From Simmondsia chinensis (taxonomy: Eukaryota; Streptophyta; Magnoliopsida; Caryophyllales; Simmondsiaceae), in assembly GCA_018398585.1 (NCBI GenBank), contig JAGTTD010000005.1, positions 5,511,355 to 5,575,354 on the forward strand: DNA of 64,000 bases, written 5' to 3'. Shown piece after piece: positions 13,401 through 64,000 of this stretch. The notes under the pieces were generated by a model, which had not been told where the DNA came from, made no database searches, and worked only from the letters and a program-made list of their open reading frames with translations. Within the stretch, counting starts at the first letter, position 1, and every line of letters begins with the position of its first letter. The translations under genes and the position numbers were made by a program.

Positions 13401-15005
13401 TGTACTCCCCCCCTCTCTATCTTTCTCTCAGCTCAGATTATATTATTATCCTGGACTCTACAGGTATTTATACCTTTTTATTAAAAAATCAGCAACCTCA
13501 GAGTACCTCATTAACCATCAGATCTTGATTAAAAAAAGCAAAAGCAACCTTCCCAGTGCCCCAAGAGCTCCCGCCTAAGCAAGGTCTGGGGATGAATGTA
13601 TGCAACCTTCCCCCCTTCAAGGTGCTACCCTGAAACGAGGCTGTTTCCGAGAACTCCCAGCCTGTGGGGTATAACACGAGGACTTTCCAAAATCCAATTG
13701 GGAACAACATGACCCCAACAAAAGAAAAGAAAAGAAAAAAAAAAAAAAAAATTAAACAATTCACTATTTGATAGATATATTATCACTCTACGTAAGAGTA
13801 TAAAAACTAAAAATAAAACATTAAACAACTCACTATTTGATGGATCTATTATCAATCTATGTAAGAGTATAAAAACTATGTCATTCACCGACATAAACTT
13901 TTGAAATCTTTGACTTAATATCAAACCCTTGATATCCAAGATCCCATGAGTTTGAACCCCAAAAGCACCAACTTTTAAGCTCAAGGAATGAGATAACACT
14001 ATCACACTACCCAGAGCGGGACATAACCCTAATCAACCGTTTGGGCTCCAAAATTTAGGGGCTCAAATTTTAAGGGTTATATTTATAATATCAAAGTTTT
14101 ATGACTAAAATTTTATAATTTTTTGTATTAATATAATGTTACTAAGAAAAATTTTATTTACATTAAGAGCCTCATTTGAAACATTCGCTTTAGGGCACAA
14201 CAATGTCGGGACCAGCCCTGACCCTACCCGAGCTTCAACCCTAATGGGCAATAACGTGAGATGGCATACTACAGTGTAAAACTATTCATAAACCTTTACG
14301 CATCAACTTAAACTTTGAGACAGTTAGCGTTGTACAATCCAAAATCCCACTTCATACCCTAAAAATGAGGCTTTTGCCAATCTTCCCGGCAGGATGATTG
14401 GAAGCATACTCCTCTCTCGTCAAATTCCTCGCCCTCATCAACGCAATCGCCACCGTATCCCCAAATACCATCTGAATCGCCGTCGACGTCACCGGCGCCA
14501 TATCAAACGGGCACAACTCTCTCTCCAACGGCAACACCACATTCATATCACAATACCCCATCAACAAACTCCCCTCATTCGACGTAACCCCGATCAATTT
14601 CGCCCCTTTCGCCTTCACACACGGCGCCAATCTGATCAACTCCTCACTATTCCCCGACTTCGAGAACAACACAACGACGTCGTTTCGGGTCACAATCCCA
14701 ATGTCCCCGTGAAGAGCATCAACAGGAGAGAGAAATCCAGATTTGATCCCGAGGGAAACTAGGGTTTGAGAGATCTTCTGAGCAACAAAACCCGATTTTC
14801 CAACGCCGGAGAAGAAGATTGTTCCAGTTGAATTGAGCAGGGTTTGAGTGAAATCTAGGGTTTGAGAGAGATCAAGGTGATTGAAGAAGTAATTGAGGTA
14901 ATTTTGCTGGGATTTGAAGAGATTTAAGAGGGTAAATTGATCCATTTGGGATGTGGGTAGGGGTTGTTTATGAGGGATCTCTGCATCTGAAGGGAGAGAA
15001 CCCAT
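10441..15005 (-). CDS. Arabinose-5-phosphate isomerase (SIS + two CBS domains)
   Basis: The enzyme interconverts ribulose 5-phosphate and arabinose 5-phosphate, the precursor of Kdo used in pectin rhamnogalacturonan II. Exons in reading order: 14358-15005, 12004-12227, 10441-10597; all introns are GT-AG; product 342 aa, close to bacterial KdsD/KpsF and plant homologues. The SIS domain covers about residues 40-190, with [14 protein letters not shown] and [11 protein letters not shown] as sugar-phosphate motifs and the conserved [11 protein letters not shown]. Two CBS domains follow at about 217-280 and 291-340, ending [14 protein letters not shown] chose ATG 15005-15003 (MGSLPSDAE); an in-frame ATG 46 codons upstream would add a low-complexity leader (SLSLSLSL) encoded by a CT repeat that looks like 5' UTR. 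The Arabidopsis counterpart is SETH3. Both introns hold SINEs and other insertions. Confidence 0.93.
10684..10792 (+). mobile_element. tRNA-derived SINE (plus)
   Basis: An A-box-like segment (CATAGTAGTTAAAGC) and a B-box-like segment (TTGGGTTTGAGCTC) are followed by C-rich sequence and a T run at about 10778-10793. It abuts an oppositely oriented SINE. It lies in intron 2 of the isomerase gene. Boundaries are approximate. Confidence 0.55.
10793..10900 (-). mobile_element. tRNA-derived SINE (minus), relative of 9106-9212
   Basis: On the minus strand: TATAGTGATTAGGCTATC as A-box region and TCTTCGGTCCGAAGC as B-box region, followed by GGGGGGA and A-rich sequence running into the neighbouring homopolymer. 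It lies in intron 2 of the isomerase gene. I did not find a target duplication. Confidence 0.55.
11298..11392 (-). mobile_element. Decayed 5S-SINE head
   Basis: Read on the minus strand this aligns along its length with the 5S-like head of the SINEs at 50960 and 51435, from the ACCAACAC-like start through ATCCCATCA, ACTGCTTAGG, GAATAGTATTAGGATGG and ATGACCTTCT. It is clearly diverged and no Angio tail follows. It lies in intron 2 of the isomerase gene. Confidence 0.65.
11486..11960. mobile_element. hAT-type non-autonomous element, old
   Basis: The ends TCAGGGATGTAAATAAACCA and GGTTTGTTTACCCCCCCTA are inverted relative to each other. Flanking 8-mers AAATATGG (11478-11485) and AAATACGG (11961-11968) match at 7 of 8, as for an aged hAT target duplication. 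The interior has many GAGC/GCTCG motifs and no ORF. It ends about 45 bp from exon 2 of the isomerase gene. Confidence 0.75.
12570..12682 (-). mobile_element. tRNA-derived SINE with strong B box
   Basis: On the minus strand a tRNA-like head (AAGTGGTAAAACACTATTAA) precedes a perfect B box, GTTCGAATCCC, then CACTTCCAACC. It lies in intron 1 of the isomerase gene. The 3' end is uncertain. Confidence 0.6.
12910..12950 (+). repeat. Fragment matching the 3' end of 5S rRNA
   Basis: A short stretch (GGTGACCTGCTG then AAGTCCTCGTGTTG) matches the last part of 5S rRNA as seen in the 5S-SINEs, with one small gap. No tail follows. It may be an eroded SINE piece in intron 1 of the isomerase gene. Confidence 0.4.
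13528..13712 (-). mobile_element. 5S/Angio composite SINE, 5'-truncated
   Basis: On the minus strand the sequence runs from the 3' end of 5S rRNA (GAAAGTCCTCGTGTTATACC) directly into the Angio-type body (GGTAGCACC, GAAGGGGGGAAGGTTGC, CCAGACCTTGCTTAGGCGGG, CACTGGGAAGGTTGC). Most of the 5S head is missing. The plus-strand A-rich tract at 13726-13752 flanks the head side. It lies in intron 1 of the isomerase gene. Confidence 0.82.
13751..13888. repeat. 69-bp tandem duplication
   Basis: Two adjacent 69-bp copies begin at 13751 and 13820 and share TTAAACAA, CACTATTTGAT and GTAAGAGTATAAAAACTA. They have several substitutions, so the duplication is not recent. The GAGTATAAAA motif resembles the TRIM terminal repeat start found elsewhere in this window. 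Confidence 0.65.
13890..14012 (-). mobile_element. tRNA-derived SINE-like sequence
   Basis: On the minus strand an A-box-like region (TAGTGTGATAGTGTTATCTC) and a B-box-like region (GGGGTTCAAACTC) are spaced as in tRNA-derived SINEs. Divergence is high and ends are approximate. It lies in intron 1 of the isomerase gene. Confidence 0.45.
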
Positions 15006-15078
15006 TTTTTGAATGAAACTGGTTAGGGATTTGGTTTGCAATGTGAGGATGAAGATGAAGATGATGAACAAAGAGGAG

Positions 15079-22890: not shown

Positions 22891-22912
22891 CATCTTACTA
22901 TATTATTGATAA

Positions 22913-23154
22913 AGCAAGCAAAAAAAGCAACCCCAAGGGCTCCCGCCTAAACAGGGTCGTGGGGGGAGGACGAATGTACACAACCTTCCCCCTTTAGGGT
23001 ATTACCCTTGAAGAGAAGCTGTTTTCAAGTGCTTCCAATCTGAAGGTGAGGACTTCCCAGGAGATTACCTATCCTAGTACTGCTCTCGCCTAAGCATGCT
23101 TAATTTCGGAGTTCTAATGGGATGCGATGACGGCGTGTTGGTACCCTCTTTGGT
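22913..23154 (-). mobile_element. Full-length 5S/Angio composite SINE (minus)
   Basis: A 242-bp unit. On the minus strand it starts ACCAAAGAGGGTACCAACAC, continues through a 5S-like head (ATCCCATTAGAACTCCGAAA, GCGAGAGCAGTACTAGGAT, CTCCTGGGAAGTCCTC), then the Angio-type body (GGGTAATACCCTAAAGGGGG, GACCCTGTTTAGGCGGGAGC) and a T-rich end. Flanking 21-mers at 22892-22912 and 23155-23175 match at 20 of 21. The 5S A-box, intermediate element and C-box regions are recognisable. Confidence 0.93.
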
Positions 23155-23399
23155 ATCTTACTATGTTATTGATAATGATACATAATTTTTTTTTTAAAAT
23201 GTAAATAAAATAACTGATGATATAAAGGCCAGTGGATTAACGGTAGCACTATCATTTAAGCCCAGAAGCCAGGCCCGGACCGGACTAGCCCAGCCCAGTC
23301 CCTTCAAATCTATCTATTATATTATTACAAAACTCACACTCCCCACAAACCCCCCTAAAATTCTCCATTTTAAGAGTCCTACCATTCTATGCCATTTCA

Positions 23400-26559: not shown

Positions 26560-29500
26560 TCGTCTTAGGCAGCAATGAGGGAAATGGAGGAAGCTAACGA
26601 GCGCCGCTTTGTATCCATCGAGCACACCATGGAACGGATTACTGAAGTTGCGGATGCCTTGTCAATTCAGTGCACGGGACTTGTCCACCATGGAACGGAG
26701 GAAGCTAACGAGAGCCACTTTGTATCCATCGAGCACACCATGGAACGTATTAGTGAAGTTGTGGATGCCTTGCCAATTTAGTACACTACTCGTCCATCTA
26801 ATCACCCATACACCACCTCCTCTAATGCCAACTCTTGAATCGGCACCACCACCACCACCATGTGATGAGGCCCTGCCTTCCAGGCGCCAGCATTTGCTCG
26901 AGGTAACTACCAAGCTCCCACCCAATTTACTAAAATTAATTTTTCGAGATTTAGTGGTAAGGGTGTCGATAGTTGGTTATAAAGATGTGAGAGATACTTT
27001 GTGCTTGATGGAACCCCGAATGAGTTAAAAGTGATATTAGCTAGTGTATCAATGGAGGATGATGCACAGGAATGGCACAATTCGTTTGAAAAATCGTGGT
27101 CTCGAGGTGTTTATATTCCATGGGAGGTTTATGCCCCTCAAATTCGATCTCGAATCGGGAAAACCGCCAATGATCCATTGATTGAGTTAATGCGACTTCG
27201 GCAAGTAGGTGATGTTGATGACTTTTTGAGTAGATTTGAAGCACTAGTGAATCAATGTGGGTTGATTGAGGAGCAAATGATTCACATTCTTCTGGGTGGA
27301 TTGCGCGAAGAGATTTCGGGTCATATGCTTATGTTTAAACCTCAATCTATACGTGATGTGGTTACACTTGCTACGCAGCAAGAACGTAACCGTGCTCATA
27401 TGGACCGTATAACCGGTAAGAACCCAATGAAAACAACACCATTACTTCCATCACCGGGTCCACCTTGTGTGACACCTGCCCTCCCACACCTTAGACTGCC
27501 CGCCCATTTATTACCCGCACTAGGGAACACGCCTAGACCCCCTCCTTGAGGTCAATTAAGCTTGGCACCGGCCAAATTGGACGACCTTCGTGCTCGCAAC
27601 TTATGTTTTTATTGCCGGGAACGCTTCACCCCGTGTCATCAATGCGCCATGCACAATCGCGCTCGTGTGTTCTGGCTTGAGGCGGATGATGAAGATTAGG
27701 ATACCGCCAATACTCTCCTGCCAGATCTTGATCCAAATCCGATTACTGATCCACACATCTCAATCCATGCTTTGGAAGGGGTCCCACATTGTCAGACAAT
27801 GCGTGTTCAAGGTCACCATTTGAGTATTCTCATTGATAGCGGCATCACTCATAACTTTCTGGATGCCAACTTCGCAAGACTTATTGATTGTCCCATCGAT
27901 GCCGCCAATCGGCCCTCAGTCACTATCACGGACAGCAAACCGATAGTTTGTATGGGCATCTGCCATAACTTTAGTTGGTACCTTCAAGACGCCGCCTTCC
28001 AGTCCGATATGTTACTCATTCAGTTATCAAGCTGTGATATGGTACTCGGCATCCAGCGGCTCCGTACTTTGGGGATGTCCTTTGGAACTTTTAAGATCTC
28101 TACATGTCTTTCGGCCTTCAAGGTCGTCATTACACTCTTCAGGGGATCCACCCACATCCGTTGAAGGCCATCACCGAGAACATGCTCTCATCGCTTCTCA
28201 CGTCGTTCACTTCCTTTTTTCCATCTCAGTTATGGCACCGTCCAGCTCGCCACTTTGTTTCTCGGCAACAACGACTCCGCCAATGGAGGACACCCCGCCT
28301 GATCTGCAGGACTTACATAACGAGTATGCGGATGTTTTCCGCCTCTTCTGGACTCCCTCCCTCATGCCAGTTCTTCGATCACCGCATTTCGCTTAAGGAA
28401 GATAGTAACCCTGTCAATATTTCGCTGTCCTGGTATCCCCTTTTCAAAAAGACATCAACGACTCTCTGATCAAGGAAATGTTACTCGCCGAGATCATCCA
28501 GAATAGCAATTACACTTTCGCTTCACCGGTGGTCCTTGTCAAGAGGAAAGAAGGTTCTTGACGCCTATGTGCGGATTACAGAACCCTTAACAAAATGACT
28601 ATTAAGAATAAATTTCTGATACTAATCAATGAGGAACTCTTAGATGAGCTTGGCGGAGCTGCTTTCTTCTCCAAGATAGATCTTAAGTTGGGTTATTGGC
28701 AAATCCGAATGTCCGCTGATGATATTCCGAAGATCGCTTTCCGCATCCACTCTTATCCTTATGAGTTTATCGTGATGCCATTTGGATTGTCAAACACTCA
28801 GTCAACTTTTTAGAGTTTGATGAATGACTTATTTCGTCCTTTCAATTCGTCCTCGTCTTCTTCGATGATATCCTTATCTACCCACAACATTGCCCGCTCA
28901 CTTGCACCACATCCGTAAGGTCCTTGGCGTTCTGCACAATAATCATCTTACCGCTAATCGTGCCAAGTGCACGTTTAGCGCACACTGCTTTTGAATACTT
29001 AGGCCATTTCATCTCGAAGGATGGGGTCATTGCCGATCCAAAGAAACTTGAAGCTATCGCCAATTGGCCTTGTCCCCAATCTTTGAAACAACTCTGTGGT
29101 TTCTTGGGTCTTTCGGGCTACTACCGCCGCTTTATCACTCAATATGGCGTCATTGCTAGGCCCTTGACTGACCTCCTAAAGAAGGGCAACTTCTTCTGGA
29201 CTCCACAGGCTGAACTAGCCCTTGATCGCTTGAAGCACACACTGACGTCCACACTTGTTCTCGCTCTTCCAGACTTCTCACAGCCTTTCATCATTGAGAT
29301 GGATGCGTCTGGCCTTCGTGCAAGGCGGCAAGCCCTTAGCTTATATCAGTCGTACTCTCGCACTCCGCCATCAGGGTCTCTCGATATATGAGCGAGAATT
29401 GCTTGCTGTTGTCTTCACTTTCGAGAAGTGGGGGCAATATGTTACAGGTCATCACTTCATTATTCAGACTGATCAACAAAGCCTTAAGTTTCTTCTCGAG

Positions 29501-31040
29501 TAGTGGTTGTCCATTTCCCTGCAACATTTGTGGCTTTCCCGCCTAATTGGCTTCGACTATGATATTGTGTACAAGAAAGGCTCCGAAAACTGGGCCGCCG
29601 ATGTCCTCTCCCAACTTTCCGGTTCCGGAGATCTCCACATACCCTTATCATCCATCTCTTCTGACTTTTTCGACCGCTTAAAGGCGTCATGGTCTGCTGA
29701 CCCTGTTTTGTAGTGTATCGTCGCTAATAAGTTGGATGAACCACTATCCCATCCGAGCTACTCTTGGCGCCAGGGTCAACTACGCTACAACGGTCGACTC
29801 GTTGTTGGTTATGACACTAACCTATGCCAAGCTATCTTATTATGGCTTCATGACTCAGCCCAAGGTGGCCATTCGGGTGTAGACGCAACTTACCGTCACA
29901 TCCACCCATTGTTCGATCGAAAGGGCCTCCGCCATGATATCCAAGCTTACATCTGCCAATGTTCCATTTGCCAATGCAACAAGTACAACACTTTCACTCC
30001 AACTGGTCTTCTCCAGCCACTCCCGATCCCTACTTGGGTACGGAACAGTATTTCCTTGGACTTTATAGAAGGTCTATCCCCATTGGAGGACCGGTCAGTT
30101 ATTCTTGTCATTGTGGACCATCTGACTAAGTGCACCCACTTCCTGTCTCTTGCTCAGCCCTATACCACGATTGGCATCGCCAACCTCTTCTTGGATCATA
30201 TCTATCGTCATTACGATCTTCCCGAGACTATCATCAGTGATTGTGATCCTATCTTCACCAACCTCTTCTGGTGCGAACTTTTTTCTCGGCTAGGCACTCA
30301 CTTCAATCTTTCATCATCTTACCACCCGCAGTCTGATGGCCAGACCGAAGTATTCAACCGCTGTTTGGAAACATACTTATGCTGCATGATCAGTGAGTAG
30401 GCCCGACTTTGGACTCATTGGTTACCCTTGGCGGAATGGTGGTACAATACTACATTCCAATCCTCAGCGCAATCCACGCCTCATGAGCTGCTTTATGGCC
30501 AACCTCCACCAATTCACCTTCCTTACTTGCCAGGCAAATCACCCATTGGCGGCGTTGATTGCACTCTGTCTGGCTAAGAAGAAACTATAGCTAGCCTTTG
30601 TCATCACTTGTTTCGTGCTTAGAATCACATGAAACAACAAGTTGACCACCATCACGTTGATCGTGAATTTCAATTTGGCAACTATGTCTGGCTCAAGCTC
30701 CAATCCTACCGGTAGCATAGCGTTGAAACTCGGCTTTTCCACAAACTTGCCCCCAAGTTTTACGGGCCTTTCCAGATACTTGATCGGGTTGGAGCCGTTG
30801 CTTACCACCTAGACTTACCAACACACACCGCCATCCATCACACGGTGCATCTTTCGCTCTTAAAGCGCTGTTTCTATGTTCCCGCTTCCAGCATTCCCTT
30901 ACCAAATGTTTGGCCCCCAGTTGCAGCCTCTCCCCAGCCACTTGCCATCTTGGACCACTACATTGTCAAACGTCGACGCATTGCCACCACCCAGGTCTTA
31001 GTTCAGTGGGTGGGCCAATCCCTCGAGGATGAGGATCTTC
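26560..31040 (+). pseudogene. Degenerate Ty3/gypsy gag-pol
   Basis: Gag core at about 27001-27549 (DDAQEWHNSFEKSW, QIRSRIGK, VDDFLSRFEALVNQCGL), then a zinc-knuckle relic CFYCRERFTPCHQC (27603-27644). Protease about 27770-28160 with ILIDSGITHNFLD, where the usual DSGATH has I for A. Reverse transcriptase about 28380-29000 (FFSKIDLKLGYWQIRM, MPFGLSN, catalytic FFDDILIY). RNase H about 29280-29600 (IYERELLAVVFTFEKW). Integrase about 29870-30540 (SDCDPIFTNLFW, YHPQSDGQTEVFNR). The C-terminus (VLVQWVGQSLEDEDLL) is chromodomain-like. At least ten stops or frame breaks interrupt it. Confidence 0.9.
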
Positions 31041-31055
31041 TCAAGGGGACGACAT

Positions 31056-31509
31056 TGACACAAACCCGAGTTCCCAGATACCGCCAAACCCTCAGACCCA
31101 CCTACCGCGAAGACAGCTAAATGCATGACACCATCTGCCTCTCGCATCCGCCTTACCGCCAATAACTGCTTGCATCCATTAACACATCAGCATATCCAGC
31201 TTTCCTTATGCCACGTCAGCTTAGATATTTTATTGGATATTTTTGCTTCATCTTTTATAAATTGAGGGGGGTAGTTATTTTAGGGTTCATACTTATTGTG
31301 TGTGTGAACTTTCTCTCTCTCCCTCAAAAGCTCTCTTTTATGTCTTCTTCCCCTTTTTCCATGTAAATCCTCCATTAAGGAGTTTATACTTATACTCTAT
31401 ATTAAATATATACAAAGGGGTAGCCAATTACTGCCCCGTGGCCCTAAATTCTGTATTGATTGAGTGTTGATTAAGTTTGATTCCAATGTTTTGAGCTAGA
31501 TTGGTATCA
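31056..31509 (+). repeat. 3' LTR of the Ty3/gypsy element
   Basis: A 454-bp LTR, TGACAC...GTATCA, followed directly by the ATAGA target duplication. A purine-containing stretch (TCAAGGGGACGACAT) just before it is the probable polypurine tract. The pol frame runs into this LTR. Confidence 0.93.
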
Positions 31510-32230: not shown

Positions 32231-33216
32231 GATAAAGAGAAAAGGAAGGAAAGAGAGGGACAGAAAACAGAGGCAAGTGGGGGGAGGAGAGAGAGGAAGG
32301 AGATCTGAATTGGGTGGTGGAATCGGGTCGAATCGTGTCCTGTCATTTCCCTGCTGTCCTCATTGAAGAGAGAGAAACAGCCGCAGTAGAGAGAGAAACC
32401 ATCTCTAGAGAGAGAAAGTCTCGATCACAGCAGCAGCGGTTATGGACTACCAGTAGATCCATCCCGACTCTGAATTCTAGATTAGATTGCACCGTCGCCT
32501 TTCATTCTCTCTCCTCTTCCTCCGATTTTCTCTCTCTACTTCATAAGCAGCAGCAGAAGAAGGAGAAGAATAAGAGTCAAAAGTTTGACCTATAGCTGAA
32601 TGGAAAAGCGAGGAAATTTGACGCTCGAGCCGATTTTCTGTTGCTTTTTAGGTTTTTGATGCTCATTCGAAGGTAATTTTCTCTGTTTTGTCTCAATAGA
32701 TGCATCGGATTGTAGTAATAGAAGTTAGGGTTTGAGTTGTGCGTGATATCGGATTTTTCGATGCGAAGGTGAGAAAGGAGAAATTGTGCGGAAATTAATT
32801 TCTCTTTTGATCAATCCGTGGTTTGGATTGTGTAGATTGATGTTTTGCTCTTTGTTAGGTTTAGATTTTTAGTTTTAAGTATGATTCTTGTCCATAATCT
32901 GACTGATCTGCGTGTTTGGTTTCTGTTTAATTGTTTTTCAGTTTGGAACTTGCGATTGGCACTGTATCATCCAGTGGAAATTAGGTCAAAATTTTGAACT
33001 TTGCAGCTTTGGTCAGAAATTAAAGTGATTTTACTGTAAGTTGAGCGTATGAACAGTCTCAAACCCTAGAAATCCTAATATAGTGGCAGTTGGGAAAGCC
33101 AAGTTTGGATCTGTGAGTGATTTGATTGATTGAATTACTGGTGAGGTATGGATGGGACTATAGCATAGGAGTTAAATCTGAGGAGAAAGGAGGAGAGGGG
33201 GAGAGAAAGAGGTCCA
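32231..33216 (+). promoter_or_regulatory. 5' leader of the ankyrin gene: GA-rich start, putative leader intron, teloboxes, two uORFs
   Basis: GA-rich sequence at 32238-32300 and CT/GA motifs down to 32540 mark the transcription start area. A leader intron is plausible from 32673 (AAG/GTAATT) to 32941 (TTTTCAG). Telo-box motifs occur at about 32725 (TTAGGGTTTGAG) and 33061-33069 (AAACCCTAG). Two minimal upstream ORFs are visible: 33049-33069 (ATG, five codons, TAG) and 33148-33168 (ATG, five codons, TAG). Functions of these are inferred. Confidence 0.55.
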
Positions 33217-36200
33217 ATGGAGGATTTGTCTAAGTATTCGCACAGCCCGGCTCATGTGGCTGTTCTTCGCCGTGATTATGCGGGGTTGAAGCGTTTGATT
33301 GCGTCACTTCCTAGATTGGCCAAGGCCGGTGAGGTCACCACTGAGGAAGAGTCCCTCGCTGCTGAGTTTCAGGCCGATGAGTTCTCTGCTGTGATAGATA
33401 GGCGTGATGTTCCTGGTCGGGACACGCCATTGCACCTCGCAGTGCATCTTAGGGATCCGATATCTGCTGAGATATTGATGTCTTGCGGTGCTGATTGGAG
33501 TTTGCAGAATGAGAATGGCTGGAATGCTCTCCAGGAGGCTGTTTGTACCCGGGAGGAGCAGATTGCTATGATAATAGCGCGGCATTACCAACCTCTTGCT
33601 TGGGCCAAATGGTGCCGTCGTCTCCCTCGTATTGTTGCGTCTGCAGCTAGGATTCGTGATTTCTATATGGAGATATCGTTTCACTTTGAAAGTTCAGTCA
33701 TTCCTTTCATAGGCCGGATTGCCCCATCAGATACTTATCGAATTTGGAAACGTGGCTCTAATCTTCGTGCTGATATGACCCTTGCTGGCTTTGATGGTTT
33801 TCGCATCCAACGGTCTGATCAGACATTTCTTTTCCTTGGAGAAGGATATTCTTCGGTAGATGAGAGTGTGTCCGTCCCTCCAGGTTCTTTGATTGTACTT
33901 GCTCATAAGGAGAAAGAAATCACAAATGCGTTGGAGGGAGCTGGTATTCAACCCTCAGAAGCTGAAGTTGCACATGAGGTAAAACTGATGTCTCAGACAA
34001 ACACATACAGGCCTGGGATCGATGTTACTCAGGCTGAGCTTGTTCCCCATTTGAATTGGAGGCGGCAGGAGAGGACAGAAACGGTTGGAAATTGGAAGGC
34101 TAAGGTCTATGACATGCTTCACGTGATGGTAAGCGTGAAATCTAGGAGAGTTCCTGGCGCAATGACAGATGAGGAGCTTTTTGCTGCTGATGAGGAAGAC
34201 AGGCTTGCAAACAGCGAGCATGATGATTTTGAGGATGTATTGACTGCTGAAGAAAGGAAACAATTGGATTCTGCCCTTAGTATGAGGAATTCAGAGAGTT
34301 TCTGTGAAGACGAGGACAATGTGGACGACTGCCATGAAAATGGTTCTAACGCTGCCCTCGAAAATGGTGAGTCTAATGGAGTTGTGAAAGAGAAGAAGGG
34401 TTGGTTTGGTTGGAATAGAAGGGGTTCTAAGAGTGCAGCTGATGATGGTGAGGATCCGAAAATCATCAAGAAGTTCTCCAGACCTGAAGGAGGCCACCCA
34501 AAACCCGCTGAAACCCAAAAGGACGATGCGGGTGATAATAGAAAGGGAAAGGATAAAAGCATCAAGAAGAAAAAGAAGAAAGTGACAGTTAGCGAGTCCA
34601 AGCATGAGAGCGAGTACAAGAAGGGTTTGAGACCTGTTTTATGCTTGACTCCGGATTTTCCTTTGAAGACTGAGGAGCTTTTGCCTTTGCTAGACATATT
34701 GGCCAATAAAGTTAAGGCAGTAAGAAGACTTAGGGAGCTCTTAACTACTAAGCTACCTCCTGGGACCTTCCCTGTTAAGGTATTGTTTTTACATTTATAT
34801 GTTTCTTTTTCACTCTTGTTCTCAGTATCACGCCTGACCTGATGAGTGCTATTTTGGAGTGCAAATTTGAATCTGGTCTATTCTGGCTGAAACTTTTGAT
34901 CTTCATGACTGTTAAACTTCTTTTTTAAATCAGTTTAAAACTGGGAAAATGAATATCTTTGGTTACATAAGCTCGGGGAAAGGGTATTTGAACATAGGAC
35001 CTATTGTCCTAAACTTCAATCTTCTCATGTTTATACCAGTAAACTGATGCCTTATTTGGCTGGGAAACGGTTACGCTTGTTATCAGTCTCTAATTCTAGG
35101 TAATTTCCACCCATGTTATGTAGTATAAAGAAACCCTTATTAGCTTGGGAGAAGCGTTTGGATCTGCTAATAGATCTCGGAATTAAACTGTTGAAGTTTT
35201 GATGCAATTTAATAAGACCTGGTGTGCTCTGAACTGTTGTGAAAATTGTTGTGTTTGCTAAGATTATGGTCAGGTTTCGCTGCATTTTGTCGTTCTTCTG
35301 CATATGATAACCTCAACATGCATCTTATCATTCTTCTACACATGATAACCTCAACAAGGACCCGTTAGCTCACCGTCGTACTCTGTTACTATGTGTATTA
35401 AGTGTTTGCAAAATTTAACTAGGGAGTGTACAAAGTTATCAATAGAAAGCATTCCCGGTGGTGTTTGCTAAAGAAATAGTCGATAATAGTAAACTCTACA
35501 ACTAGTATTTCACTTGCAGCACTTCTTGAGACGTCCTTGAAGTTTATGTTACTGTTTTTCGGTGATGAGAATCTCATATTGCATGTATTTTTATGTTTTT
35601 GATGTGATAAAACCGAGTGTGGTCATTGTCATTTCATTTCTCAATTTGGGGCCTGCTGTTTAGCAGTTATGTACTATGCCTGTCTGGCTCCTTGAGTTGT
35701 TGCATCATCATGTTCCACTTGTGATGGTCAAACAACCTCAATTTATTCTGATGTTTCTTTCTTCTCCCAATATTATTATTTGCTGGTTTATCAATACTGC
35801 TGATGTTACAATAAATGAACTATGGTCGGTCAAATTCTATTAATGTATAATATACCTACATGGTTAATCTCTCAAGCCTCATTCTGTTGCGAGTAGAGAT
35901 TATGGAAGTAGTGGTGATACTTCATACAGTATGTAGAACACGAACCACTATGTTTAACCCTGGGTAGCCTTGGCATCCTGATATTTGCCGCATCCCACTG
36001 TATCGTCAAAATACTTTGGAAACATGAGACCTCGTTCTCTCTCTCCATGTGCACTGTATTTTGCTTATTTTGTTAATTTAGTCCTTGCGTAATTGAGGTT
36101 GTTTCAATCAAGTCCAATGTTGAGAATAATGTCAATTTGCGGTAAAAATTTTAACATTAGTTAGCACTTATATATGTTCTCCACATGGAAGGTGTGTTTA

Positions 36201-40211: not shown

Positions 40212-40344
40212 GTCGTTGAAGGTTCTCGAAAACAGCCTCTCTTCAGGGTAGCCCCCTGAAGGGGGAAGACTGCGTACATCTACCCTCCCCAGACCTTGCT
40301 TATGCGGGAGCCCTTGGAGGCACTGGGTTTGTTGTTGTTGTTGT
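40212..40344 (+). mobile_element. Angio-tailed SINE with target duplication
   Basis: A 133-bp SINE: GTTCTCGAAAACAGCCTCTC, GGGTAGCCCCCTGAAGGGGG, CTGCGTACATCTACCCTCCC, a GCGGGAGCCC block and a long TTG tail. Flanking 17-mers at 40195-40211 and 40345-40361 match at 16 of 17. It lies about 290 bp downstream of the MYB-CC stop codon. Confidence 0.87.
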
Positions 40345-40634: not shown

Positions 40635-43600
40635 CTAGCATTGATCCGGGTCACCCATTTTTGGACGCTTCATGGGAGGAGGACTAGACCCGTGATTATC
40701 AGGACAATGATCTTCACTAGTTCTTGTTTGCTGTGCTGTTAGCTTCCCTTTTGAATTATGAGAACCCTCATTGGGTTCTAGGGTTGAAACACTGGTACTT
40801 GATAGTGCTCTAGATTGGTCCAACTCGGATGGGTCAGACTTGTCGTTAGCAGAGGGGCGAGTACCAGAGGATGACGTGGCTTGCAACTTCTCCTTCTCCA
40901 TCTTGCGTTGTTGCTCGAACATCTCTAGAAGGCGCTTCCCTTGTGCTTCCATTTCCAGCTGCAACTTTCTTTGTATCTGCAAATAAGTGTTAGAGCAGCG
41001 GAGGAATGGTTAAGGGAAAATTAAAATGGCTTGTATATCAGGTTCTTTTTTATTAGCAAGAAAACAATTTTTCTTCCGAATAATCTCTCTCAAAATGTTC
41101 TAAATATTATTATCTTAAAAAGTTCTCGTTTATGTAGCTCAGAAAATAATTACATACAATAAATTCATATGAAGTTTGCATTTGACCGAATTCAGGTTGA
41201 ATTGAGATATAATACATAAGAATATAACGCAAAAGGTTTTCACTTATGGGAAGGAAACTGACTTTCCCTCTCCTTGAGGAGACAAATTCACCTCTATGAA
41301 AGAAAACACTTTCAGTTTAGGTAATTATCGCTACTCGCATATTTAAGAGAACGATAAAAATGAGACGAAAGATTGTGCCCCCCAAACAAACTGAGCCAAT
41401 GGCGGGTCCTTCAAAGAACATTGTTTAGCTAATGCATTCATATCTCATAAATGAAACCAGATAGAGCAGGTGGAGTCGGCTACATGGATTCGACAAGGAG
41501 GACCCATAATGAAAAGACCCCATAAAGTTTTATTTCTTTTGGCTACCTAACACAAACCCTCCTCTCAGTTGAGTCGGTTACATATGCATCTCTATGAAGC
41601 GAAGTTCCATGAGAATCAAGCATTAGCACCAGACTGAAATCTGGCAATTCATTTGAGTTCGATAAGTCCAAGTCAAAACGACAAAAGCGTTTCAAGGTAA
41701 AGAAAGATCATTCGGATATGCCATATGTTCCTCTACATTGTCTAATTTCGTTACATTGGCAAGGCCAGGTGAGGGGGGAATGCCCATAGTGGGGAATCAA
41801 ACCCAGATGGCTTCTCTGTCCTCCCGAGTTCCCAACCACTAGGCCATTGTCCTTCAAGGACTCATTTACATTGTCTAATAAAAATGCGTCTTTCATGCTA
41901 TTGAAAACAAATGAGTTTTTTCCTTAGGACCAATGCAGGGGTGATTTTGGGGGTTTTTTTTCTTTCTTGTTTTTTTTTTTATGAGGGCAAATTACAACAG
42001 GAGAGGGCAAGAAGATTTGAACTCGGGCCATTTCCAAGTCAGGAGTAGTTACCACTACGCCAACCTCTGAAACCTCACAATAATTGGTGCGATAAAGGCT
42101 AGTTCACTTTGCAAAAGTTTTTCAATTTTCTAAAAACAAATTCAAATCCTTAAGTTTTCTTGGAAAAAATGCAGTCAAAAAGACCCATATTTCCAATTTT
42201 TTTTTTATAGAAAACATGGTTCTCCAATTTTCTTCTACTTTGTACTAAAAATTAGAAAACACTATTCCCTTGTTTTTTAAGTTTCCCTTCATAGTTCAAA
42301 ATTGCAGTTTTCCGCTTTCGCACTTGAACAAACAAATATAGAAACAACAACAACAACAACAACAGTCCCAGTGCCACAAGGGCTCCCGCTTGCGCAAGGT
42401 CTGGGAGGGGTAGGATGTACGCAGCTTTAACCCATTAGGGTGGGCCCCTGATGAGAGACTGTTTCTGGGGATGGTGTCGGACTTGAACAAACAAATATAG
42501 AAAATTAAGAAAAGTTTCCGTGGAACCAAATAAATCCTAAAATCATAACATAAGCAGAACTAAAACTGCCATCCCCATACCTCGAGCTGTTCATGAAGTT
42601 TCTTTTGAACTTCCATTTGCAGTTTCAGCGCTTCAGTAATGCCCACATTCCTGTCATTACAAAGGAAGACACTGTCCTCGTTAGTAACAAAGACTCGCAC
42701 AGCTTTTTTCAAGTTCGAGATAAGCCAGCAACAAATTCTTTTTCCCTTTCTATGAGGGTAAGAAAAGGCTAAGAGCCCTTCCCAGGAACGGAACAACCTA
42801 AATCATTTTATATGGAAGAGGAAGTGATGAGGGTCGAAGTCAGTCTACTTTCAAGTTGGAGCATGGTAGTTATGCCAACCTCTGGAACCTCGATAAGCGA
42901 GTAAAATGGTAGAAGGAGACCTCCTATCGATCAATGGAACTTAGAGACTGATTGATAAGGCAGAGAAACCCATGTTGGGGCAAGGTGACAAAGGAAGCAG
43001 TAGAACACAAAAAATTTTAATCAAAATATAACATCCAAGAATTTTGTTTCACGGTGGAAATTTAAAACTCATGGAATCAAATAAATGTTGTTGCGTGATG
43101 TATCTTAAGCTATGTGTCACGCAATGTGTATTGTCTATTATATACTAAAACATTTCTATATATTTATGTACCTATTCAAAACAATAAACAATATAAAAGC
43201 ATCGTACAGCTGTTCCTCCAAAATTTTCCAAACACAATGGGTAAAGAGTAAGCTTACGATCTACTTAAAACCCTTAAAAAATTTGTCATCACATAAAATC
43301 TGCCCCATTTGCTAATGAAAGAGAATCACTCCCATAGATGTACATGTTTCCCTTAAAGAAAATTGACTTACGTTTTCAAGTCCAAAGAAGCCACCAGATC
43401 AAGTGAGCTACTTTTCCTATCTGAAGTTACTGCAAGAGAACATTGGTGAAAAGATACATCAAGCAATTACATATGGCAGTTTCATCGTCCTGTTGAGGGT
43501 TCCTTTAGGAAGCAATAGACCTAGGGATTATGGATGTAAATAAGCCAAGCAAGCTTATTATATAAAAGCTCAAAAGGCGTCGGCTTGTTTTGAGCTCCAG

Positions 43601-49766: not shown

Positions 49767-49899
49767 CAACAACCACAACAACAAGCACAATATCTCAAGG
49801 GCTTCCGCATATGCAGGATCTAAGAGGAGTGGGACGTACCCAGCCTTACCCTTTTAGAGTATTTGTCCGAGGACTCCCGACGTGGACAGCATATAAGCA
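49767..49899 (-). mobile_element. Angio-tailed SINE with 17-bp target duplication
   Basis: A 133-bp SINE. The plus strand reads CAACAACCACAACAACAAG, CAAGGGCTTCCGCATATGCA, GGACGTACCCAGCCTTACCC and GTCCGAGGACTCCCGACGTG. The flanks 49750-49766 and 49900-49916 are a perfect direct repeat TAAGTTAATTCTTATAT. Confidence 0.9.
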
Positions 49900-50920: not shown

Positions 50921-50959
50921 AATATCTTTTACTGAAATTAGATAGGTTTTAATTTAAAA

Positions 50960-51188
50960 CCAAAGAAGGCACCAACACGCCGTCATCGGATCCCATTAGA
51001 ACTCCGAAGTTAAGCGTGCTTGGATGAGAGTATTACCAGGATGTGTGACCTCCTGGGAAGTCCTCACCCTCAGGTTGGGGGCACTGGGAAACAATCTCTT
51101 TACAGTTTAACACCCTGAAGGGGGAAGGCTGCGTACCCCCCAAGACCGTGCGTAGGCGGGAGCCTTGAGGCATTGGGTATGTTCCTTG
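50960..51188 (+). mobile_element. Full-length 5S/Angio composite SINE with perfect 19-bp duplication
   Basis: A 229-bp unit starting CCAAAGAAGGCACCAACACG. The 5S-like head includes GGATCCCATTAGAACTCCGA, AGTTAAGCGTGCTTGG (A box), ATGAGAGTATTACCAGGATG and TGACCTCCTGGGAAGTCCTC (C box). It passes into the Angio body (GGTTGGGGGCACTGGGAAAC, GAAGGGGGAAGGCTGCGTAC, GTAGGCGGGAGCC) and ends GGGTATGTTCCTTG. A perfect 19-bp direct repeat GATAGGTTTTAATTTAAAA flanks it (50941-50959 and 51189-51207). This shows the composite was inserted as one unit. Confidence 0.96.
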
Positions 51189-51434
51189 GATAGGTTTTAA
51201 TTTAAAAGCACTTATATGGAACATAATTCAATAGACTCGGAGAATTTTTATTATAATGTGATGAATTTTTTGGTAAAAACACTAATTACAAATGTATCTC
51301 AAACATATTATCATAATTATATATTACATTAATGCTTTTAATAAAATTTACCCAATTCTATCAAAAATTTTCAAACCACATGGTACTTTATTGTGTGTCT
51401 TAAATATTAGAGTATGCAACTGATAAGTATTTAA

Positions 51435-51672
51435 CCAAAGAGGGCACCAACACGCCGTCACCGGATCCCATTAGAACTTCGAAGTTAAGCGTGCTTGGAC
51501 GAGAATAGTATCAGGATGGGTGACCTCTTGGGAAGTCCTCACCTTCAGGTTGGGAGCACTGGGAAACAACCTCTCTTCGAGTTAACACCATAAAGGAGGG
51601 AGGCTGGGTACATCCACCCTCCAGATCCTGCATGGGTGGGAGCCCTTGAGGCACTTGGTATGTTCCTTTTTT
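51435..51672 (+). mobile_element. Full-length 5S/Angio composite SINE, second copy
   Basis: A 238-bp unit with the same start (CCAAAGAGGGCACCAACACG), 5S-like head (CACCGGATCCCATTAGAACT, AGTTAAGCGTGCTTGGACGA, GGATGGGTGACCTCTTGGGA), Angio body (GGCTGGGTACATCCACCCTC) and end GTATGTTCCTTTTTT. A perfect 17-bp direct repeat AACTGATAAGTATTTAA flanks it (51418-51434 and 51673-51689). It lies 0.25 kb from the previous copy, but the different duplications show an independent insertion. Confidence 0.96.
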
Positions 51673-51689
51673 AACTGATAAGTATTTAA

Positions 51690-52655: not shown

Positions 52656-52659
52656 TTCC

Positions 52660-54720
52660 TACGTTTGGTATATTATTTTTTTGTTTTTTTTGAACATAAA
52701 AGCCCGAGGGCAAGAAACTAGGTTAAAAAATCGGTCAAAGTTTACAAGGGAAATCAAAGGTGGAGGGGGGGCCGCCCACCAGTGATGAGTACAACGACGA
52801 CTCAAGTGACAACGAGCAACGAAATGGGCCACCCTATTACATGATCTAGGTGACCAACGAAAAAGACAAGAAATAAAACAAGCAGAAGAGGCTACCATGA
52901 AAATATCCTCAATAATAGCACTACAATCCCACGTAATGGGAGAAGAACGAGAAATAAAGTTAATAGCAACCAAACAATCAGACTCAATGATAACATTCTT
53001 CCAACCATAGGAGGATGCAAGGGAGCAAGCGGCTCTTATTGCAAGACGTTCGGCGATAAGCGGAGAAGAAGCTGAAACGTTGGCGCACCATCCTCCCACA
53101 ATCAAGCCCGAAAGAGATCGAGCTACAACCGCTAGGGCAGCTGAGGAGTGGGAGTCAAGAGCAGCGTTGGTGTTGATTTTGATCCAGTTATCCGGTGGTG
53201 GAGCCCAATGAGAGGGAGAAGCTGGAGGTGGAGTTGCTGGAGCTGCAGCAGCAGCCGGGAGGGGACCAGCAGCAGCCAAGAGAGGGTCAGCAGCAGGGGT
53301 GTGGCCAATGGCTGCGGAATTAGAAGCACAGAAAGCAGTTGACGTAGGCGAGATGACGGTTGATTCAAAAATAAGCTTGCATCGTCCTTTTCATATTTCC
53401 CAACAAAGGAGGGTGATCCTGGATAAAGAGTCAGCATTAAAAACGTTGCTAGAGCAAATTGAATCCCACCAATGATGGAAGCCATTGAACCCTTGCTCGG
53501 AAGGGCGGAAGCCAGGGGGGGAGACAAACCAACAAGCTTTTGCCCATGGGCAAAGAATGAGGGTATGCTCGGTAGACTCGATGATACCATCACAACGAGG
53601 ACAAAAGGGATGGAGTTTGAGATTTCTCTTCCAAAGGTTTTCTGAGGTTGCTAGAGCATTAGAGGAGGCTCTCCACATGAAGTGTTTTATTTTTGGTGGG
53701 ATGGGGAGAGACCAAAGTATACGAAGGCTAGAAGGGGAGCAAATGGAGGAACTTGTGGAAGTGGATGAATGATTGATAGGATTTTGAAGAAGAGACCACA
53801 GCTTATAGCCTGATTTGACGGAGTAGGTACCGTGTTTGTTGTGGTGCCAAATGAGAGAATCATCCCTGTATGGATTTCCGATTGGGATTGAAAGGATTGC
53901 CTCGGAAACACGATTGGGGAAAAGGTGTAAAAGAGAGTCGGCTTTCCATTTACGGGCACTTGGGATAATAAGATCTGAGCCCTTTGAGGGGACCTCGTTT
54001 CCCGCCGGTTTGGGCCCAACCGAAAAAGAGGGGAGCTGAGAGACCCATTGATCGTCCCAAATGTTAATGCAAGAACCACTGTTAACCTTAAGGATGGAAG
54101 AATTTTGGAAGTAGACACCTTTAAGAATTTTGACCCAAAAAGCGTTTAGATTTTGGAGGGCCCTCCAAACTTGTTTTGCAAGAAGAGCATTATTGATCCC
54201 TTGAAAATCGCAAAAACCAAGACCTCCAAAAATTTTGGGACGAGAAATGAAATTCCAACTTTTCCAATGGATACCTTTGTCCTCAATCGCACCTCCTTTC
54301 CACCAAAAAGGGGCAAGGGAGCAATTAAGCTTTTTAACGACACCAAGTGGAATTTTGTAGCATGACATGACATAAGAGGGAATGGCCGATACCACGGATT
54401 TAAGAAGAATTTCACGACCCGCGTGGGAAAGAAGTTTTGATTTCCATCCTTGCATTTTGTTACGGATTTTGTCAAAAAGAAAGTTAAGAGCGCATTTTTT
54501 TGATCGACCCCAAAGGATTTGAGTACCGAGGTACCTGTCATTCTCATCCATTTCAGTCACACCAAGAATCTCCATACATTCTTCTCTTACCCAAGAAGGG
54601 GTATTGGAGGAGAAGAAAGCATGGGATTTATGGAGGTTAATTTCTTGGCCCGAAGCCGCACAATATGAAAATGAGGTTAAAATAGTCACTCTTAATTTGG
54701 CATGTATTAGTGAGAGTGAG
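52660..54720 (-). pseudogene. 5'-truncated L1-type LINE: RT end, zf-RVT, RNase H
   Basis: On the minus strand one frame runs from the C-terminal part of a LINE reverse transcriptase (SGQEINLHKSHAFFSSNT, GREILLKSVVSAIPSYVMSC) through a zf-RVT region (PPKIKHFMWRASSNALATSE, CPRCDGIIESTEHTLILCPW) to a plant-type RNase H domain (DNWIKINTNAALD, AERLAIRAACSLASSYGW, IIESDCLVAI, SCNRVAHFVAR). It is interrupted by a single in-frame TGA at 53391-53393. The first acidic RNase H position appears as N (INTNAA). The frame ends in an A-rich 3' tail (T-rich on the plus strand, 52672-52690). The 5' part (endonuclease and RT core) is missing. Confidence 0.9.
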
Positions 54721-54762
54721 TATAAACAAATAATTTACCAATTACCATCCCATAGATTTTGG

Positions 54763-55009: not shown

Positions 55010-55126
55010 CCATATTCTCGTGTTGCACCCCGCAGGTTGGGTGTTTTCGGAAACAGCCTCCGTTTAGGGTAGCACCCTGAAGAGGGAAGACTACGTACAT
55101 TCACTCCCTCGACTCTGCTTAGGCGG
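55010..55126 (+). mobile_element. 5S/Angio composite SINE, left part, split by a TRIM
   Basis: It starts with the 3' end of the 5S head (TTCTCGTGTTGCACCCC) and continues into the Angio body (GGTTGGGTGTTTTCGGAAAC, GGGTAGCACCCTGAAGAGGG, ACTACGTACATTC, CTCTGCTTAGGCGG). It is interrupted at 55127; the remainder (GGCGAGAACCCTTAAAACAC, GAGAATGTTG) resumes at 55361 to about 55392. Confidence 0.85.
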
Positions 55127-55360
55127 TATCAAGACTTTCCCAAAAGCTTAAGTTGATGGGTAAAGGCCCAAGAATAGTTTTATACTCTAATATGCCCCTC
55201 ACATTGTACTTAAATTGTTTTAATATTGAAAGTGGGGGCTGTTGAGATTCGAATTTGTGATCTCTTGGTCAACAAGGCTCTGATACCATATCAAGGAACC
55301 ACCTTTCTCAAAAGCTTAAGCTGATGGGTGAAAGCTGGAGAATAATTTTATACTCTAACA
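55127..55360 (-). mobile_element. TRIM-like miniature LTR element (234 bp)
   Basis: On the minus strand: a 72-bp terminal repeat (TGTTAGAGTATAAAATTATT to TCCTTGATA, 55289-55360), immediately TGGTATCAGAGCC (55276-55288), which fits a tRNA-Met primer-binding site, about 80 bp of non-coding internal sequence, a purine-rich GTGAGGGGCA, and a second 66-bp terminal repeat (55127-55192). The flanks GGCGG and GGCGA fit a 5-bp target duplication. It inserted into a 5S/Angio SINE. The size is at the very low end for LTR elements. Confidence 0.88.
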
Positions 55361-57055: not shown

Positions 57056-57369
57056 AAAAGGAGGAATTGTTGAGATTTGAACATATGTTAAGAAAACGAT
57101 TAGCCCAAAAGTTTAAGCTATGACATGGAGTCAATATGAAATTTCAATTCCTTTACCCCCATCCAAAAAATTAGAACTCTTATTTTTAATTGAAACCCAA
57201 TTCAATAGAACCGGACATTGAATTTGCGATTCCAGTTCCAATTATTGGACCAAACAGTAGCATTACAATTTTTTAATTCAACTTCAATCCTAATTTTAAG
57301 CTCGAATTTCATACGCCAAGCAAGATCTCAATTATTTTTCCATTTTATAGAATCGATGCAGTGTGGACT

Positions 57370-57567
57370 AGGGTTCATTTACCAAGCACTAAAACACCGG
57401 ATCCCATTAGAACTCCGAAGTTAAGCGTGCTTGAGCGAGAGTAGTACCAGGATGGATGATCTTCTGTGAAGTCTTCGTGTTGCTAACCCCATAAGGTTGG
57501 GAATCTTTGAAAATAGCATCTCAGTAGGGTTATACTCTGGAGGGGTAAGACTGGGTACAACAAAGTT
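57370..57567 (+). mobile_element. SINE with complete 120-nt 5S rRNA-like head
   Basis: Immediately after the left target duplication the sequence follows 5S rRNA from its first base (GGGTTCATTTACCAAGCACT) through ACACCGGATCCCATTAGAAC, AAGTTAAGCGTGCTTGAGCG and GAGTAGTACCAGGATGGATG to GTGTTGCTAACCCC, 120 nt in all (57371-57490), then enters the Angio body (AAGGTTGGGAATCTTTG, GGGGTAAGACTGGGTACAA). A perfect 15-bp direct repeat GATGCAGTGTGGACT flanks it (57355-57369 and 57568-57582). The Angio tail is cut short. Confidence 0.93.
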
Positions 57568-57698
57568 GATGCAGTGTGGACTGATTACTAAATTTTTGGG
57601 CCAAGTTTCAGTTGGGCTGCAATTTGGGTTTTTTATTGACTCATCTTTTGGGCTTTTGGGTTTGAGGAATGCGACCAAGAAAAGGTGTTGAGAACTGC

Positions 57699-59059: not shown

Positions 59060-59077
59060 GTATTAGAATGTTTAATA

Positions 59078-59317
59078 CCAAGATAGTACCAACAAATAAG
59101 CATTGGATCCCATTAGAACTCTACAGTTAAACATGCTTGGGCAAGAGTAGTACCAAGATGGGCGACTTTTTGAGAAGTCCTCGTGTTACACCCCTCAAGT
59201 TGGGGGTTCTTGGAAACAACCTGTCTTCAGGGTAGTACCCTAAAAGGGGAAGGCTGCATACATCCACCCTCCCAAACTCTGCTTTGGCGAGAGCCCTTGG
59301 GGCACTGGGAATATTGA
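59078..59317 (+). mobile_element. 5S/Angio composite SINE, first unit of a tandem pair
   Basis: A 240-bp unit: head CCAAGATAGTACCAACAAAT, 5S-like GGATCCCATTAGAACTC, GCTTGGGCAAGAGTAGTACC, GAAGTCCTCGTGTTACACCC, then the Angio body (GGGTAGTACCCTAAAAGGGG, GGCTGCATACATCCACCC) ending CACTGGGAATATTGA. It is preceded by GTATTAGAATGTTTAATA (59060-59077) and followed by a related 18-mer (59318-59335). Confidence 0.92.
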
Positions 59318-59335
59318 GTATTAGGGTCTTTAATA

Positions 59336-59564
59336 CCAAGATAGTACCAATAAACAAGCACCGGATCCCATTAGAACTCCGCAGTTAAACGTGCTTCGGC
59401 GAGAGTAGTACCAAGATGGGTGACTTCCTGGGAAGTTCTCGTGTTGCACCCCTCAGGTTCGAAACAACCTCTCTTCAGGGTAGTACCCTGAAAGAGGAAG
59501 GCTGCATACATCCACCCCCCAAACCCTGCTTTGGCAAGAGCCCTTGGGGTACTGGGAATATTGA
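59336..59564 (+). mobile_element. 5S/Angio composite SINE, second unit of a tandem pair
   Basis: A 229-bp unit starting with the same CCAAGATAGTACCAA, with a better-preserved 5S head (CACCGGATCCCATTAGAACT, CCGCAGTTAAACGTGCTTCG, GGGTGACTTCCTGGGAAG, CTCGTGTTGCACCCC), a small deletion at the start of the Angio body, and the same ATATTGA end. A third 18-mer GCATTAGGATCTTTAATA follows (59565-59582). Confidence 0.92.
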
Positions 59565-59689
59565 GCATTAGGATCTTTAATATTAGGGTAGTCTAATAGT
59601 GAGTATAGTGGGCCCCATTTAAAGAGGGATTATTCTATAAATAGAGGGGTCATTATAAGTTACCAACTCTAATATTAGAGGGATTTGAA

Positions 59690-62678: not shown

Positions 62679-62791
62679 ATGTGGTATCAGAGCCATCTTC
62701 TGATCCGAAGAGGGCTTATCCTATCCTTATTTTTCCCCTATTCGGTTAAAACCGAATCAAAAAAAAAAAAAAACTGGCTATTACAAGAAGC

Positions 62792-64000
62792 ATGTCATCA
62801 ACCGGTCACACCGAAACCAACGAATGGGTCGACGCCGTTGACGGAAGGTTGGTCCGCTTGGAGGAAAGGATGGACCGACTAGAGGAGCAACAAAACCAAA
62901 ACAACACCGAAATGATGGCCACCATGACAAACATGGGGGCAGACATGGCGGAGATGAAGGCGGACATTAGGGCCCTAACCGATGCCGTTGATCGGTTAGT
63001 AAGGGCCCAAGAAAAGAGGCCCGAAGTAGAGACCGTGGCACCAACCGTGGGTGCCCGTGACAACGCCGTGCCCGGAGGGTCCGGCACGTACCCAAGAGCC
63101 GGAGATGGGATCCTCCCTCCACCAACACACTCCTCGAAGCTTAGAAATAACCGTGTCTCACCTTGGGTCATGGATGAAGGAGAATTTAGCCGGAGCCATG
63201 GCAGCAACCGCACCTTGTCCTCCCACACACCAAAGCTCGAGATTCCAAAATTCGAAGGTACGAACCGAATCCGTAAGTGCCTTAAATATTTTCGTTGGTA
63301 TCAAGTGCCCGAACATGAATGGGTGGAATATGCTTCGAGCCATCTTCATGAACATGGGGACATTTGGTTCCATGGGCTTGAGCTTAGACACCCACACATG
63401 ACGTGGCCATTTTTTATGGATGAATTGTGTAAACGTTTTGGAGACCGATCGCTCCAAGACATAGTAGAAGAGTTTAGCAAGACGTCTCAAAGCGGGCCGG
63501 TCGAAGATTATATTTTGAAGTTTGAAGAGTTGAAGAGTTGGATGCTAATTCATCACCCGACATTGAGCGAGGCATACTTTGTCTCGAGCTTTATTAGTGG
63601 GCTTAAGTCCGCCATCCGAGCATCCGTCAAGGAAAGCCGTCCGATCGACCTTAGCATGGCCTTTGAACAGGCCAAACTCCAAGAAGTTGCTGTAACCGAG
63701 ATCAAAACCGCTGCCAAACCTGTTGCCCGACCCAATTTCAGCACACGGCAGGTTCCCAGCAGCCGGCCAGCACCCTCGGCAGCGCCCCAGGGCTCGACCC
63801 AATCCCAGGGGTCCATGTCCAAGCCTGGCAGCACCCGGTCCAGCAGCAACAGCCACGCAGGGTCCAGCGCACCTAGACGAGAGCAGGGCCAATGTTATAA
63901 GTGCCATGAAAAATACTTTCCGGGGCACGTTTGTAAGAAGGCCTTGCAAAGTATGGAAGGTGAAGAGGTTGAAGATGAAGCACAAGAAGAGGAAGTTGCG
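62792..64000 (+). CDS. Ty3/gypsy Gag (3'-partial)
   Basis: The structural capsid/nucleocapsid polyprotein of the retrotransposon. The frame opens at ATG 62792 (MSSTGHTETNEW) and has no stop to the window end, 403 codons. Residues about 18-75 are a heptad-like coiled coil (DGRLVRLEERMDRLEEQQNQ). The gag core spans about 150-310 (LEIPKFEGTNRIRKCLKYFR, EYASSHLHEHGDIWFHGLEL, LCKRFGDRSLQDIVEEFSKT, FISGLKSAIRASVKE). A Ser/Pro/Gln-rich linker follows, then a zinc knuckle CYKCHEKYFPGHVC (residues 368-381) of the spacing common in Ty3/gypsy Gag, and an acidic stretch. The frame probably continues into protease and pol. Confidence 0.92.
   Translation, partial: MSSTGHTETNEWVDAVDGRLVRLEERMDRLEEQQNQNNTEMMATMTNMGADMAEMKADIRALTDAVDRLVRAQEKRPEVETVAPTVGARDNAVPGGSGTYPRAGDGILPPPTHSSKLRNNRVSPWVMDEGEFSRSHGSNRTLSSHTPKLEIPKFEGTNRIRKCLKYFRWYQVPEHEWVEYASSHLHEHGDIWFHGLELRHPHMTWPFFMDELCKRFGDRSLQDIVEEFSKTSQSGPVEDYILKFEELKSWMLIHHPTLSEAYFVSSFISGLKSAIRASVKESRPIDLSMAFEQAKLQEVAVTEIKTAAKPVARPNFSTRQVPSSRPAPSAAPQGSTQSQGSMSKPGSTRSSSNSHAGSSAPRREQGQCYKCHEKYFPGHVCKKALQSMEGEEVEDEAQEEEVA

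Follow-up and report, generated by a model that had tools for sequence, protein, structure and literature searches.

SINEs headed by 5S rRNA have been placed in vertebrates, insects and a fungus, and for one of the insect families, HaSE3, an RTE LINE is the presumed helper. All plant SINEs listed in a 2022 review are of the tRNA-derived kind, which is also how it describes them (PMC9033089), and a 2024 paper mentions genic promoters acquired by animal SINEs (PMC10853983). Many angiosperm SINEs carry a 37-bp 3' Angio-domain (PMC9033089), and Au-like SINEs are reported with T-run ends (PMC3747384). The L1 LINEs of flowering plants nearly always have a poly(A) end, and the RTE LINEs a (TTG)n or (TTGATG)n end (PMC3747384). 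Reported plant SINE/LINE pairs consist of a SINE ending in Tn and an RTE LINE ending in (GTT)n; in the LINEs as in their SINEs, a run of T is found about ten bases ahead of a target duplication whose first two bases are T and A (PMC13295347). A 5S-derived internal promoter, with an A box, intermediate element (IE) and C box, is also found in another plant retroelement, the TRIM Cassandra (PMC10853983). One paper mentions 5S-homologous sequences among SINE3 elements "including plants" (PMC3095306); the reference that it gives there is the same as for Cassandra, and we read the phrase as meaning that element.

The DNA analysed here is a stretch of 64,000 nucleotides from Simmondsia chinensis (the window). 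It contains a composite of 229 bp (e1, 50960-51188) that is bracketed by perfect 19-bp repeats and has the following parts.

50941..50959, no strand: left target-site duplication of e1, 19 bp, identical to 51189-51207
50960..51070, plus strand: 5S rRNA-derived head of e1 (Rfam RF00001 match)
50988-51063, plus strand: portion of e1 corresponding to 5S positions 30-105, internal promoter included
51071..51188, plus strand: body and tail of e1, related to a LINE 3' end
51140-51177, plus strand: block of e1 with the clearest counterpart in (TTG)n repeats and LINE copies
51189..51207, no strand: right target-site duplication of e1, 19 bp, identical to 50941-50959

The Rfam 5S model RF00001 matches e1 at 50959-51076 (60.2 bits; cut-off 38). 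Similarity to 5S begins at about its first base and extends through the internal promoter, and the 5S 3' end is shortened in the e1 subfamily. The body is common to many other repeats of the window. The flank repeat of e1 has a score of 19, which was reached by none of the random flank pairs taken from the window (up to 200 drawn; 95th percentile 8), and the chance of a 19-bp match at two fixed places is about 1e-11 with the base composition of the window. A sequence-only reading of this DNA had described a 229-bp unit with a perfect 19-bp duplication outside both parts, which proves exact to the base, and a 5S rRNA-derived head, which is borne out by the Rfam score and by the comparison with host 5S given below.

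BLAST and nhmmer identify six composites in the window, e1 to e6 (e4 without its 3' end), together with two truncated copies. Those other than e1 are as follows.

51435..51672, plus strand: composite e2, 84% identical to e1; duplication 17/17 at 51418-51434 and 51673-51689
22913..23154, minus strand: composite e3; duplication 20/21 at 23155-23175 and 22892-22912
57370..57567, plus strand: composite e4, without the LINE-like 3' end; duplication 15/15 at 57355-57369 and 57568-57582
59078..59316, plus strand: composite e5, first of a tandem pair; 5S 3' end kept
59336..59566, plus strand: composite e6, second of the tandem pair; 13/14 positions of the 5S 3' end kept
13538..13701, minus strand: 5'-truncated composite whose start is close to the 3' end of the 5S part; no flanking duplication found
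55012..55138, plus strand: composite truncated at both ends, starting in the 5S 3' end; no duplication found

Rfam 5S matches above the cut-off are present in e1 and four other window copies; the 5S part of e3 scores below it. Clear duplications of different sequence flank four of the composites (19/19, 17/17, 20/21 and 15/15). A tRNA-related head was not found, as ARAGORN predicts no tRNA in the window and Rfam at its cut-off reports only 5S. Among the window copies, the 5' end of e4 is nearest to true 5S. This element has a perfect 15-bp duplication even though the LINE-like 3' part, which should recruit the helper, is missing from it. At 59062-59582, e5 and e6 are arranged head to tail, and three related flank sequences (TATTAG..TTTAATA) accompany them; the element may have been duplicated in tandem or may have inserted into a duplication that already existed. 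The window also includes LTR-retrotransposon pieces at 26579-31120 and 62750-64000 (integrase zinc-binding, RNase H-like, gag and Ty3 capsid domains), a remnant of another LINE on the minus strand at 52659-54734 (zf-RVT and RVT_3 domains) and host gene exons at 3294-4736, 14352-15158 and 33169-34842 (C5HC2 zinc finger, SIS domain and ANKRD13-type protein). The best named matches of the ANKRD13-type protein, at 82-85%, are those of Beta, Bienertia and Amaranthus, which places the host probably in Caryophyllales.

The composites belong to a dispersed, multi-copy family. When e1 is used as a query against the 831-Mb genome there are 5,046 first-look candidates, and each of the 40 that were scored spans both head and body (40/40). 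Thirty copies, e1 among them, were fetched as the best matches to e1 and, because they were so chosen, represent a young part of the family, each 0.9 to 5.7% away from their 235-bp consensus. For 25 of the 30 the duplication score is at least 11, and the other five are without a duplication; in 1,000 mismatched flank pairs the 99th percentile is 11 and the highest score 12. The duplications of the fetched copies are approximately 12-23 bp in length. Retrotransposition of the composite as one molecule, as first proposed for e1, is supported for the family by these 25 of 30 top-scoring copies, whose duplications lie outside both parts and differ from copy to copy. Neither separate duplications of the 5S part and the tail nor an existing entry for such a family appeared in the searched material.

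An older subfamily was searched for using e5, giving 8,369 first-look candidates; among the matches listed beyond e5 itself, identity is 83-86%. Copy number was estimated from twenty 10-kb stretches at hand-picked round positions (200 kb in total). This sample has 3 composites (2 of them cut by a stretch end, one of which, L043, model 1-155, was counted by hand outside the script rule), 7 body-only matches and 0 5S-only matches (E 1e-4). The resulting density of 15 per Mb corresponds to about 12,500 copies per genome (95% Poisson interval 2,600-36,000). The window is denser than the sample, with 6 composites in 64 kb.

The host 5S genes are arrayed on contig C8, which accounts for 46 of the 47 scored matches (51,838 first-look candidates). 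The three host 5S sequences used for comparison, two array genes and the single scored match elsewhere, carry CATTAG and CCGAAG at positions where plant 5S in general has CATCAG and CCGCAG. CATTAG is present in 6/6 window composites. The A of CCGAAG is common to the young subfamily, e3 and e4, and is replaced by C in e5 and e6. The SINE consensus is identical to the host 5S gene at 73/76 positions over 5S 30-105 and at 13/28 over 5S 1-29, a pattern expected if the promoter alone is retained, and the C-box motif AGGATGGGTG, which is the canonical one (PMC10853983), is intact. The consensus is without 8 of the last 14 5S positions, of which e6 keeps 13. Elements start no more than about two bases from the beginning of 5S, a property to be expected if a pol III transcript was copied completely. 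Judging from these matches, the head evidently derives from the 5S rRNA of the host lineage. At 5S positions 81 and 95 the consensus differs from the present host gene and agrees with the general plant 5S, so the capture is probably older than those host changes. Given the 5S matches and the 3' end kept by e6, the captured RNA was probably the whole 5S, with the promoter stretch alone held constant.

Many repeats share the SINE body but are without the 5S head. Most of these end in TTG repeats, and their 5' cut points vary. The window includes the following.

40212..40344, plus strand: (TTG)n-ended repeat lacking the 5S head; duplication 15/17; 87.5% body identity to the SINE consensus (104 columns)
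42345..42480, minus strand: (TTG)n-ended repeat without 5S head, long duplication
49767..49899, minus strand: TTG-ended repeat without 5S head, duplication 17/17

A 44-bp fragment of the LINE-like 3' block at 178-221, carrying TTG repeats and flanked by a duplication of at least 13 bp, is an extremely 5'-truncated insertion. Some body repeats extend further, with pairs remaining alike up to about 590 bp upstream, where a conserved coding stretch is found. In some copies this stretch is the C-terminus of a reverse transcriptase. A database search gives 350 relatives of it at E 0.001 or better. Of these, 120 were listed, mostly with no name or as hypothetical proteins, and where a name is informative it reads reverse transcriptase or LINE-1. 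This C-terminal piece has no Pfam model, and a reverse-transcriptase core of the partner LINE was not seen in the copies read. In L044 (duplication 16/16) and L049 (18/19), whose duplications come from a longer search run with no null, the coding end, body and TTG tail are in a single insertion. The SINE body also matches another LINE copy, L032, at 85% identity (115 columns). Because the LINE copies have the coding end, the body and the TTG tail, the SINE body can be identified as a LINE 3' end.

A block of approximately 37 bp is common to the SINE and the local TTG repeats, and the 3' block of the SINE presumably resembles that of Au SINEs and the Angio-SINE superfamily. The Au/Angio-type tail assigned to e1 in the sequence-only reading holds in one respect only: (TTG)n-ended repeats and LINE 3' ends of the same genome have this sequence in common with it. 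The partner LINE appears to be RTE-type, on the basis of its TTG tail, the insertion signature described below and a protein motif that would fit the RTE clade. The 235-bp consensus folds no better than its shuffles (z -0.69), and a hairpin in the 3' block has stems paired in 87.5% of cells with no covariation.

Sequences around the insertion sites were compared for composites and LINE copies. In 23 composites, 45 of the 69 cells at positions -10 to -8 are T, against a background of 0.33 (p 5e-8, in one test picked after the counts were seen), and the duplication begins with T in 17/23. A wider, overlapping set of 37 full composites has 30 usable duplications; T is at -10 in 21/30, and the duplication starts with T in 21/30, followed by A in 15/30. 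The TTG/LINE copies have usable duplications in 14/35, with T at -10 in 12/14. A T-A duplication start is absent from these 14 (first base 6 T, 6 A and 2 G). The T peak ten bases before the duplication is common to SINE and LINE copies. The SINE consensus has no TTTT, and the copies have T-rich ends.

Cassandra could be the source of the 5S part, either because the copies are solo LTRs or because the head was taken from this element, which is widespread in plants and has the same promoter (PMC10853983). Three 5S-only stretches of the window (7863-7989, 11250-11392 and 12836-12975) do resemble decayed Cassandra; they have other downstream sequence, no LTR pair was seen among them, and they are perhaps decayed Cassandra LTRs. 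The SINE consensus, however, is a far better fit to host 5S (73/76) than to these stretches (55/76, 61/74 and 48/70), which are the Cassandra-like sequences compared, and old SINE copies retain the 5S 3' end. The SINE copies have duplications of 12-23 bp, whereas those of Cassandra and other LTR elements are 5 bp. The 5S is at the 5' terminus of the SINE and not, as in a TRIM, inside an LTR and away from its ends; in Cassandra, 5S is never at the LTR termini (PMC10853983). On identity, position and duplication length, a Cassandra origin of the head is very unlikely. The composite could also be no more than a 5S pseudogene adjacent to an Au-type SINE, the two having been duplicated together. 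Chance neighbours can occur, since repeats with the body alone are common (7 in the 200-kb sample), and e5 and e6 do form a tandem repeat. The same junction is nevertheless present on many contigs with different duplications and is spanned by 40/40 scored matches. Independent neighbouring repeats are refuted for the family by the copy-specific duplications outside both parts, and we give this explanation practically no weight.

The SINE could have been moved by an L1-type instead of an RTE-type LINE, as its tails are T-rich and not (TTG)n. An L1-like remnant is present in the window (52659-54734, minus strand, with the zf-RVT and RVT_3 domains). On the other hand, the SINE 3' sequence is shared with a (TTG)n-ended LINE, whereas the L1 LINEs of flowering plants are almost all poly(A)-ended (PMC3747384), and the upstream T stretch is that reported for RTE LINEs and T-ended SINEs (PMC13295347). 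Mobilisation by an L1-type LINE is improbable, and an RTE-type helper is preferred.

The reading that we favour, with a probability of about 0.88, is that of a 5S-headed SINE family that would be transcribed by pol III, moved by an RTE-type, (TTG)n-ended LINE and derived by template switching. The captured 5S would supply the internal pol III promoter (A box, intermediate element and C box) and, as this promoter is internal, transcription would start at the first base of the element. The putative pol III transcript would have no internal TTTT and a T-rich end. Through the shared LINE 3' end, the LINE reverse transcriptase would take up the SINE RNA, which would be inserted by target-primed reverse transcription, giving duplications of about 12-23 bp. 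That this LINE is the actual helper, and that it belongs to the RTE clade, is suggested by the sequence features above. The family was probably born by a template switch between a LINE-type 3' RNA and 5S rRNA.

A second junction of 5S and SINE sequence was noted elsewhere in the genome.

G000:C29:34924560-34925180: 5S copy and SINE pair (L054, L053, L055)

At C29:34924734, a 5S copy (75/76 over positions 30-105) ends in CCCC and is followed by nine bases and then a complete SINE. The pair is flanked by a 9-bp repeat, TATATTAAA, which is short and located in TA-rich sequence. It is possible that this is a 5S-SINE chimera formed by template switching and a snapshot of head capture, although the pair is suggestive only. 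A bolder proposal, that this is the first plant SINE3, born in one lineage, expanded to thousands of copies and still forming 5S-SINE chimeras (C29:34924734), has in our view an even chance of being correct.

The earlier suggestion that such an element is undescribed in plants is in line with the literature searched (which covered few subscription journals and lay outside Repbase, Dfam and SINEBase), where no description of a plant 5S-headed SINE was found. For other plants, three exact patterns had 0 matches in viral_contigs. An antisense frame of the consensus has 19 matches among predicted proteins, and the 11 examined are 5S-like antisense with no evident SINE body; because predicted proteins alone were covered, this is a weak negative. 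A 5S-headed SINE is likely, but not proven, to be new to plants.

The family has a 5S rRNA-derived head with an internal promoter, a 3' part from a LINE and dispersed copies with their own target duplications (25/30, and four distinct ones in the window), the features expected of SINE3. HaSE3 of Helicoverpa and PxSE4 and PxSE5 of Plutella are insect SINE3 families to which the plant SINE is likened by description; they likewise have a 5S head with A box, IE and C box and a 3' end shared with a LINE (PxSE5: 43 bp, 84%). The head of the plant SINE is identical to host 5S at 73/76 positions over the promoter, compared with about 63% for PxSE4/5 and a moth 5S. Among plant SINEs, tobacco TS likewise shares its 3' end with a LINE (PMC3747384) but, unlike the 5S-headed SINE, is listed as tRNA-derived (PMC9033089). 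Au and Angio-SINEs are also listed as tRNA-derived (PMC9033089), whereas the head of the Simmondsia SINE is 5S. Legume SINEs have Tn ends, RTE LINE partners with (GTT)n ends and the same upstream T stretch (PMC13295347). If a plant has a SINE with a 5S head and an identified LINE 3' end, head capture of the animal type occurs in plants too. Cassandra is an LTR element with 5S in mid-LTR (PMC10853983), whereas in the SINE described here the head is 5'-terminal, the duplications are long and the 3' end is that of a LINE. Kojima (2024) takes up again the speculative idea that insertion of a SINE3 into an LTR gave rise to Cassandra (PMC10886601). The present family looks too young and too local to be the Cassandra donor itself; a plant SINE3 is the type of donor that this idea needs and, if true, would make it concrete and testable.
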